64,000 bases of DNA from Actinomycetota bacterium (GTDB taxonomy: Bacteria > Actinomycetota > Acidimicrobiia > Acidimicrobiales > Ilumatobacteraceae): assembly GCA_016870865.1 (NCBI GenBank), contig VGAC01000002.1, positions 89,792 through 153,791 of the forward strand, read 5' to 3'. Shown here one piece after another: positions 25,124 to 27,160 of the stretch (positions within the stretch are counted from its first letter, which is position 1; every line of letters starts with the position of its first letter). Both the position numbers and the translations under genes were made by a program. Under the pieces are notes generated by a model. It worked only from the letters and a program-made list of their open reading frames with translations, was not told where the DNA came from and did not search any database.

Positions 25124-25471
25124 ATGGTGGAACACGTGCGCCGACGTGTCGATGCCATTCTCGGCATCGTTGGCCGCACCTTCATCACCGCGGGACTGTT
25201 GCTCCCCGGCTTCGTCGCCTACCAACTGTGGGGCACCGGACTCGAGCAAAGCCGCGCCCAGAGCGGCCTGCGCGACGAGTTCACGACACTGATTGCTCTT
25301 CCCCCGACTCCGACCACGCCGTAGCGACCCAACTCGGCCCTCGCGTTGCTCGAGATCCCTTCGGCCAGCGTCGCACGTTTGGTGTCGTGGGCAGCGGCTG
25401 CCGTGCCATTTTTCGTCGCTTTGTTCTACCGGTACCACTTCATCAACATGCTGCTGCCCGAGAGCACCTGA
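25124..25471 (+). pseudogene. remnant of a class E sortase-like gene (in-frame stop, catalytic core missing)
   Basis: From ATG 25124 the frame encodes an N-terminal anchor typical of actinobacterial class E sortases (RRRVDAILGIVGRTFITAG, then GFVAYQLWGTGLEQSRAQ). It hits TAG at 25322-25324, and the same frame then continues for 48 codons with ALALLEIPS, which resembles the sortase strand after the linker. A hydrophobic segment (VSWAAAAVPFFVALFY) and a TGA stop at 25469-25471 follow. The roughly 130-residue catalytic core with its His, Cys and Arg is absent. An internal deletion plus a nonsense mutation explains this best. A functional 66-aa membrane peptide is the alternative. Confidence 0.6.
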
Positions 25472-25481
25472 ATTGCAGACT

Positions 25482-26258
25482 TCAGCGGCCGTTGAAGCGT
25501 GGCGGTCGCTTCTCCAAGAAGGCCTTCGGGCCCTCCAGGGCGTCTTCGCTGGCCCATGCCTGCGCGCGCAGTTCGTCGAAGCGCGCATCGACGACGAGGC
25601 GCTCGGCAACGGCTTCCAGACCACGCTTGTGGGCCCGGATCGTGATCGGTGCGAGCGCGGCAAGTTCCTCGGCCCACTCGAGGGCATCGGCGAGACCACC
25701 CAGACGGTGCACGCCTCCGTATGCGAACAACTGCTCGGCCGAGTACACACCGGTGCCAAGCAGCATGTGTCGCGCCACGCCCCAACCGAACTCGTGGCTT
25801 GCACGTTCGATCGTCCATTGGTCGACCGCGAGGCCCAGTTTTGCGGCGGGAATTCCGAAACGACTGGTGGCACTCGCCATCCGCAGATCACAAGCGAGAG
25901 CCAGCTGCGTACCCGCACCCATCGCCGGCCCGTCGACTGCGGCAACAGTGATGCACGGCAGCGTCGTGAAGCCACGCAACGCCGCATCGAGGGCATCGGC
26001 GAAGTCGTCACCCTCGACACCCGTCAGGTCGGCCCCCGAGCAGAACGCCGGCGGCTCACCCGTCAAGACGACCACCCGCGCCTCACCCTCGACTGCACGT
26101 TGGTGGGACACGATCGTTCTCAGAGTCTCGAGATCCACGGCATTTCGTCTGTGTGGACGTCGAATCGTGATCACCGCAACGTGCGGGCCCTGCCAATCGA
26201 GGGTGACCGGACCACCACCGACTCCGCTGGCACCTTTTTCCGCGTTCAGCCCTACCAT
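25482..26258 (-). CDS. EchA6-like non-catalytic crotonase family protein
   Basis: Crotonase-fold protein of 258 aa. The acyl-CoA oxyanion segment is intact (AFCSGADL), but both hydratase glutamates are replaced: the Glu144 equivalent is Gln in GAGTQLALACDLR and the Glu164 equivalent is Ala in FGIPAAKLGL. The sequence AKLGLAVDQWTIERAS and the ending EKRPPRFNGR closely resemble mycobacterial EchA6, which binds acyl-CoA without hydrating it and feeds FAS-II. ATG 26258 is chosen (TTG 26261 is possible). It diverges from the next gene with only 12 bp between. Confidence 0.8.
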   Translation of the reverse strand: MVGLNAEKGASGVGGGPVTLDWQGPHVAVITIRRPHRRNAVDLETLRTIVSHQRAVEGEARVVVLTGEPPAFCSGADLTGVEGDDFADALDAALRGFTTLPCITVAAVDGPAMGAGTQLALACDLRMASATSRFGIPAAKLGLAVDQWTIERASHEFGWGVARHMLLGTGVYSAEQLFAYGGVHRLGGLADALEWAEELAALAPITIRAHKRGLEAVAERLVVDARFDELRAQAWASEDALEGPKAFLEKRPPRFNGR

Positions 26259-26270
26259 CAATGAGACTGT

Positions 26271-26564
26271 ATGGCTTCCGGGAACCTCCCCCCCTCTTCA
26301 CCGGTTGACCCGGTTCGCGAGCGTCGCGCGCAGGTGGCCAAGTACACCCTCCTCGCCAATCGCGTCGGCTACCTGCTCTACGCGGGGACCATCGCCTGTT
26401 TCGTCTTCGCTTTCGCCTTGGGTTTCAACCCGACGATGGTGGGCATCATGACCTTCGGTCTCGTCGCCGGGTCCATTCTTCTGGCACCTTCGATCGTGCT
26501 CGGCTACGCCGTGAAAGCCGCCGAACGCGAAGACCGCGAACGCGAACAGGCGGCCGGCAGATGA
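26271..26564 (+). CDS. small two-helix membrane protein
   Basis: Protein of 97 aa, family not recognised. A Pro-rich N-terminus and basic stretch (VRERRAQVAKY) precede two membrane helices (about 34-51 and 58-79); a charged tail (EREDREREQAAGR) follows. Its stop overlaps the start of the TetR gene by 4 bp, so the two are coupled. Confidence 0.7.
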   Translation: MASGNLPPSSPVDPVRERRAQVAKYTLLANRVGYLLYAGTIACFVFAFALGFNPTMVGIMTFGLVAGSILLAPSIVLGYAVKAAEREDREREQAAGR

Positions 26565-27160
26565 GCATGACATCCGCCCGACTCACCGCAAGTGAGCGGC
26601 GCGAGCAGCTCCTCGGCGTGGCCTTGAAGGTGTTCGCGCGGAACGGCTTCCACCACTCGTCAATGAACGACGTCGCCGATGCGGCGGGTGTCACCAAGCC
26701 GGTGCTGTACCAACACTTCGACTCCAAGCGCGCGCTGTTCGCCGCCGTGCTCGAAGCGGTCGGTGAAAAAATGATCGGTGTGATCCGCGCCGCGACGCAG
26801 GGTGCTGCATCAGGTCGCGAAAAGACCACGGCAGGAATGGTTGCCTACTTCCAATGGGTGATGGACGACCCCCACGCCTTCATGCTGCTGTTCGGCAGTG
26901 GCACCCGTCGTGACGAAGAGTTCGCCGCAGTTTCCGCGCGCATCGAAAAGACCACCGCCGAAATGATCGCTCCACTCATCGACGCCGACGTCGATGCCGT
27001 ACAACAGCGCGTAATTGCCCACGCCCTCATCGGCATGAGCGAGGGTGCGTCACGCCACCTCATCCAGCGTGGAACGAAGTTCGACCCACGCGCCATCGGT
27101 GAGGAACTCGCCGCTCTCGCCTGGGCCGGCCTGCGTTCCATCGGCCGCAAGCCGTCTTGA
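26561..27160 (+). CDS. TetR family transcriptional regulator
   Basis: Regulator of 199 aa with an N-terminal TetR helix-turn-helix: LTASERREQLLGVALKVFAR, VADAAGVTKPVLYQHFDSK, then the ligand domain. The ligand is unknown. By position it could control the membrane protein gene it is coupled to, or the divergent EchA6-like gene. It is convergent with lhr. Confidence 0.85.
   Translation: MSMTSARLTASERREQLLGVALKVFARNGFHHSSMNDVADAAGVTKPVLYQHFDSKRALFAAVLEAVGEKMIGVIRAATQGAASGREKTTAGMVAYFQWVMDDPHAFMLLFGSGTRRDEEFAAVSARIEKTTAEMIAPLIDADVDAVQQRVIAHALIGMSEGASRHLIQRGTKFDPRAIGEELAALAWAGLRSIGRKPS

Follow-up and report, generated by a model that had tools for sequence, protein, structure and literature searches.

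A crotonase-fold protein of the EchA6 type is encoded in a freshwater-type bacterium of the family Ilumatobacteraceae (Actinomycetota, Acidimicrobiia) that shows no sign of mycolic-acid synthesis. The gene (25482..26258, minus strand; 258 aa, ATG start) lies in the window, i.e., the whole stretch of 64,000 nucleotides that was analysed (GCA_016870865.1, contig VGAC01000002.1, positions 89,792 to 153,791 of the forward strand). The product groups with mycobacterial (Mtb) EchA6, and the probability that it is an old protein that binds acyl-CoA for fatty-acid synthesis and is no hydratase was put at roughly 0.55. EchA6 has been studied as a tuberculosis drug target (two sources on this, PMC7565900 and PMC12583738, gave nothing further about its function), and the literature consulted presents its role solely in terms of mycolic-acid synthesis. 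Among the matches listed in the literature search, no title dealt with EchA6 outside mycobacteria and corynebacteria (an AcuH paper cites EchA6), and a search for EchA6 together with Acidimicrobi- gave no match. The protein is of a known kind in new hosts, and the basic function of EchA6 can be studied in harmless bacteria that have FAS-II and neither FAS-I nor a mycolate signature.

Sequence, fold and descent of the window protein

The motifs GAGTQLAL and GIPAAKLG were both found in the translation of the window ORF. Alignment to crotonases with both catalytic glutamates (E/E) placed Q118 at the rat Glu144 position and A138 at the rat Glu164 position, as the first-pass annotation had read them, so that the Glu144/Glu164 pair of catalytic enoyl-CoA hydratase is not present in the window protein. 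In a related hydratase, mutants at the equivalents of both glutamates were described as inactive (PMC5651017).

The protein matched PF00378 (125.7 bits), and its top NCBIfam model was NF005891/PRK07854 at 235.2 bits, 1.8 bits short of the curated cut-off of 237, for which reason the protein is not filed under this equivalog. NF005891 was regarded as the EchA6 model because one protein, L050, scored high both on NF005891 (403.9 bits) and in the match to the PDB EchA6 (476 bits). The best solved relative of the window protein was Mtb EchA6 (165.9 bits), the next molecule scoring 101 bits. By protein similarity search, an EchA6 match of at least 146 bits (44-100% identity) was obtained in 36 of 61 related genomes, and the matches following this group scored about 110 bits or less, except for one in G006, where a split gene gave a further fragment. 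When the phylum was searched with NF005891, matches below about 190 bits mixed Q/S relatives with E/E enzymes, and this range was not taken as EchA6.

The 1.95-Mb window genome carries several further atypical crotonases: in pairwise alignments, both Glu were found in 4/14 of the other crotonases that could be scored, one in 3/14 and neither in 7/14 (the gene of L009 itself was left unscored, and L010, L011 and L015 gave no match). Double loss of Glu alone is therefore not diagnostic, and the special point is the lineage of the window protein, not the loss of both glutamates. Within that lineage, Q/A was found at the two sites in all 30 loci obtained by protein similarity search (L020-L049, including the window's own), and comparison of the window gene with its nearest sister (93% identical) by NG86 gave a dN/dS of ~0.06 (dN 0.04, dS 0.67); together these indicate that the Q/A state is more than chance. 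The gene is an accessory gene that is under strong purifying selection where it is kept. Gln occupied the first site in 28/28 rows of alignment A1 and in 68/68 rows of alignment A3, the latter count being partly built in, since the scan pattern contained Gln. Trp at the position of W148 was found in 21/21 rows of alignment A2 and in 67/68 rows of A3; W148 was equated with W133 of Mtb EchA6 by counting in the alignment, the 264-residue PDB chain carrying 21 extra residues. W133 of Mtb EchA6 presumably contacts the THPP inhibitors.

The AF2 model of the window protein (pLDDT 91.7, pTM 0.89; residues 1-14 unreliable) was compared with solved structures using Foldseek and VIA-align, in which, among the matches listed, Mtb EchA6 accounted for 13/13 top rows and 6/6 top entries, respectively. 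The best structural match among the 50 entries listed was the C20-CoA complex 5dtw_A (Z 34.0, 1.5 Å, 242 residues). EchA6, methylmalonyl-CoA decarboxylase and some others could be aligned from end to end, C-terminal helices included; many hydratases were aligned only to about residue 222.

In a maximum-likelihood tree of 68 rows, a clade of 43 rows (support 100/99), anchored by L050, contained the proteins of Acidimicrobiia, those of Aeromicrobium/Nocardioides, the EchA6 of Mycobacteriales and one protein from a Micrococcales MAG. The Acidimicrobiia proteins (29 rows, 98/89) were sister to the group formed by the others, within which the Mycobacteriales EchA6 made up a subgroup of 8 rows (100/99). 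Next outside the clade (100/94) stood L070, a Gln/Ala protein without the Trp from another family of the same class, and the Gln/Ser-or-Ala group of families f35 and f44 was also outside. The L070 locus (L169) adjoins a gene with a sortase-like start, followed by ccmA and ccmB, and this shared gene order indicates that L070 is also orthologous by position. The split of the Q-type set from E/E enzymes and the genome's own paralogues received 98/76, below the starred level, and several of the paralogues are long-branched. The proposed phylogeny with EchA6 grouped the window protein with Mtb EchA6, apart from other crotonases, and the likeness to EchA6 that had been claimed from the letters alone was upheld by sequence, tree and predicted fold. 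One old origin followed by vertical descent within the phylum would be the simplest reading of the sequences; transfer between classes is a possible alternative.

Host fatty-acid synthesis and the echA6 locus

The search for FAS-II genes that the first-pass annotation had called for revealed a fabF-fabG-fabH cluster in the window genome (L189): FabH scored over its cut-off, and the FabF-like and FabG-like proteins encoded beside fabH passed NF005589 and NF009466, respectively. FAS-I, Emb and Pks13 were searched for in a panel of 18 genomes, in which the positive controls gave matches. FAS-I (PF08354) was found in 9/18 genomes (all 8 of family f57 and G267), Emb (PF04602) in 8/18, all of f57, and Pks13 (NF040607) over the cut-off in 8/18, the same f57 set. 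In the window genome (G000, 96% complete), PF08354 and PF04602 gave no match, and the best score for Pks13 was 127.6 bits against a cut-off of 2100, at the fabF locus; G267 gave no Emb match and no over-cut-off Pks13 match. FAS_meander (PF17951) was also tried as a FAS-I marker; it matched in no genome, controls included, and was set aside as uninformative in favour of PF08354.

EchA6-type proteins thus co-occur with FAS-I in a genome lacking mycolate genes (G267) and, in the window genome, with FAS-II as the sole synthase system found, from which it follows that feeding of mycolate synthesis is not the general role of the family and cannot be the job of the window protein. The EchA6-type protein outside the mycolate makers that had been suggested is accordingly present in this host.

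The start codons of echA6 and of a gene for a 97-aa protein are divergent, with 12 bp between them. The latter gene (26271..26564, plus strand), encoding a small putative membrane protein with no Pfam match, is co-linear with, and overlaps by 4 bp, a gene for a 199-aa TetR-family regulator (26561..27160, plus strand). The best NCBIfam model for this regulator was FasR (NF053731) at 118.8 bits against a cut-off of 330, so that it is called FasR-like only, and its best solved relative was 6o6p/6o6n (Mtb FasR). Mtb FasR is described as sensing long-chain acyl-CoA via a tunnel (PMC7382501). By hand mapping of the alignment, the tunnel residues L98, L106, F123 and F138 correspond to M71, T79, Y96 and F111 in the FasR-like protein, and one of these four positions is polar (L106 to T).

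A FasR-like match was found in 67/80 named loci and the 97-aa protein in 66/80. Comparison of coordinates placed echA6 within about 1.1 kb of the FasR-like gene in each of the family's 25 EchA6-positive genomes. Outside the family, six genomes had the two genes on one contig at a greater distance (~4 to 41 kb), and in other cases they were on different contigs or the FasR-like gene was missing (G044, G060); no FasR-like match was obtained at the Aeromicrobium/Nocardioides loci L145, L149, L154 and L157. Strict co-occurrence was rejected, FasR-like proteins being found in 34/36 EchA6-positive and also in 16/25 EchA6-negative relatives. The link of EchA6 to a FasR-like regulator, as suggested by this gene order, appears to be new.

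At the two start codons lies a conserved promoter-like divergent element (26253..26271), in which TACAGT (minus strand) for echA6 faces TACCAT (plus strand) for 26271-27160. The form recurring in the intergenic DNA of 60 loci and the window was TANNNT, a short gap, and then ATGGTA or ATGCTA; this pattern, which was written after viewing the same 61 intergenic regions, was present in 51/61 of them, the shuffles giving a mean of 0.025 and a maximum of 1. TACAGT is a putative -10 box for echA6, the spacing of which would make the mRNA leaderless, starting at or near the ATG, and TACCAT or TAGCAT is a putative facing -10 box for the regulator operon. At L087, L091 and L112, a very short reading frame begins with ATGGTA/ATGCTA and terminates upstream of the real echA6 start or overlapping it, which argues that the DNA is conserved and not only the protein. 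The short frame at these three loci is possibly a leaderless upstream ORF.

On the other side, a sortase remnant (25124-25468, plus strand) lies between echA6 and ccmA of the window, with an in-frame stop in the N-terminal part and about 200 middle residues missing, catalytic motif included. A near full-length sortase is kept in relatives of the same genus (L021/L080, L022/L081, L023-L030), and the echA6-ccmA gap in relatives, suspected to hold an acyl-CoA carboxylase, holds the sortase instead. In Aeromicrobium, a 149-aa protein that by eye resembles only the N-terminal part of AMP-forming acyl-CoA synthetase is encoded 3' of echA6 with almost no gap (L145:10696-11145 and L154:10697-11146, plus strand). 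In the actinobacterial family f35, three consecutive genes specify a beta-keto acid cleavage enzyme, a biotin-carrier protein of 81 aa and a Gln/Ser crotonase (L175:6090-8070, plus strand).

In the family, echA6 was absent from 12/37 genomes, in which FasR and FabH mostly stay; EchA6 is therefore dispensable, and FAS-II is independent of it. The FasR region was compared in 9 of these 12 genomes, G003, G013 and G014 having no FasR-like match. Clean loss of echA6 was observed in 6/9 loci (L180, L181, L182, L184, L185 and L188), in which the small protein and the FasR-like gene still flank the site at one end and the sortase or ccmA at the other; L183 and L186 showed no ccm genes in the region compared, and the genes of L187 are arranged differently. 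Presence of echA6 tracked neither FabH, which was found in 57/61 genomes, nor genome size within the family.

Proposed role and alternative explanations

According to published descriptions (PMC5964476, PMC7688586), Mtb EchA6 shuttles acyl-CoA and lacks the residues that activity requires. The window protein has kept the acyl-CoA pocket and the oxyanion-hole sequence of its predicted crotonase fold, with both hydration glutamates lost. Most likely, medium- or long-chain acyl-CoA is bound without being hydrated and then handed, or signalled, to fatty-acid synthesis. Since only FAS-II synthase genes were found in the host, the acceptor would be FAS-II (fabF/fabG/fabH) and not FAS-I or mycolate elongation. 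The level of echA6 is probably set together with that of the divergent FasR-like acyl-CoA-sensing regulator through the shared promoter. In favour of this reading were counted the invariance of Q118 in A1, the clade with Mycobacteriales EchA6, the AF2 model and its matches, the low dN/dS, the FAS-II cluster and the FasR-like neighbour. Counted against it were the shortfall on NF005891, the low FasR score and polar tunnel position of the FasR-like protein, the absence of echA6 from part of the family, and the fact that no acc or fab gene adjoins the window echA6. A broader acyl-CoA shuttling role of EchA6-type proteins can nevertheless be fairly inferred.

More tentatively, EchA6 and the FasR-like sensor may have formed an old actinobacterial control-and-supply pair that was later put to mycolic-acid use by mycobacteria. 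The regulator would sense long acyl-CoA, and the dead crotonase sharing its divergent promoter would carry acyl-CoA into FAS-II for re-elongation; mycobacteria would have inherited the non-catalytic protein, and its mycolic-acid use would have come after FAS-I and mycolate synthesis arose. Mycolate feeding was probably added later to a more ancient acyl-CoA-binding function, and the EchA6 kind seems to predate the mycolic-acid pathway and to be more widely distributed than it.

It was judged unlikely that the protein is an active enzyme of different chemistry (e.g., a decarboxylase, thioesterase or isomerase) that works through Gln118 and the oxyanion hole, its glutamates having been replaced rather than simply lost. 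Both Q118 and P137 were invariant, as in an active site, in 28/28 rows of alignment A1; the search behind A1 did not select on Q, and the two E/E loci and L053 are not among its rows. Methylmalonyl-CoA decarboxylase, which works without the Glu pair, was aligned with the AF2 model over the whole length (Z 30.1, 2.0 Å, 244 residues). The second catalytic position, however, varied among A, S, T and I in A3, the mycobacterial-type row L053 had I/V at the two catalytic positions, and Mtb EchA6, which belongs to the clade of the window protein, has been described as having no catalytic activity (PMC7688586, PMC5964476).

Less probable again is that the protein assists biotin-dependent acyl-CoA carboxylases as a partner or chaperone, by which acyl-CoA would be guarded or presented for carboxylation, with feeding of fatty-acid synthesis being secondary. 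In the mycobacterial-type L160 the divergent neighbour of echA6 is a carboxyltransferase gene (PF01039/PF03255), and in L166 such a gene is found nearby; the deeper Q/S relative in L175 is immediately preceded by a biotin-carrier gene, and a link between EchA6 and accD has been described in Mtb and C. diphtheriae (PMC5501465). No carboxylase gene, however, was seen next to the window echA6; mapping of the 80 named loci covered only genes that the window itself has, so that a carboxylase gene elsewhere in those loci would have escaped notice. The same source states that corynebacteria lack FAS-II and that mutants of Mtb echA6 were obtained in screens (PMC5501465).

A role-less paralogue of a beta-oxidation hydratase, ordinary and either degraded or redundant, its synteny being inherited and meaningless, would agree with the lack of both Glu in half of the other scored crotonases and with the repeated clean loss of echA6 from the locus, but is very improbable in view of the low dN/dS, the invariant Q118 and the conservation of the sequence across two classes.

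Comparison with known systems

The non-hydratase acyl-CoA-binding protein proposed here shares the crotonase fold and the CoA-binding framework with rat and bacterial enoyl-CoA hydratases (1ey3, 3h81), in which both catalytic glutamates missing from the window protein are present. The f35/f44 crotonases (L072-L076 and L078; Q/S or Q/A) have Gln at the first site and no Glu at the second and are likewise outside the E/E enzymes; they differ in having Glu where the window protein has W148 and in branching more deeply.

The Aeromicrobium/Nocardioides proteins (L145, L149, L154 and L157) belong to the same clade and keep the Gln and the Trp, with Thr at the second site in place of Ala. G267, which is Aeromicrobium-like by the 76% identity of its EchA6 to those of L145/L154, has FAS-I, unlike the window genome. 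Aeromicrobium and Nocardioides are not known as mycolate makers.

Mtb EchA6 (Rv0905; PDB 3he2, 5dtp, 5dtw and others) has Thr at the Glu164 position, where the window protein has Ala. Its gene neighbours accD3, whereas the window echA6 neighbours the FasR-like gene and the cytochrome c maturation operon, and the window host, in which FAS-II was found but FAS-I, Emb and Pks13 over the cut-off were not, differs from the setting of Mtb EchA6. The two proteins fall in a common clade and have in common the Gln at the Glu144 position, the Trp at W133, 39-40% identity and a whole-length match of the fold that includes the C-terminal helices.
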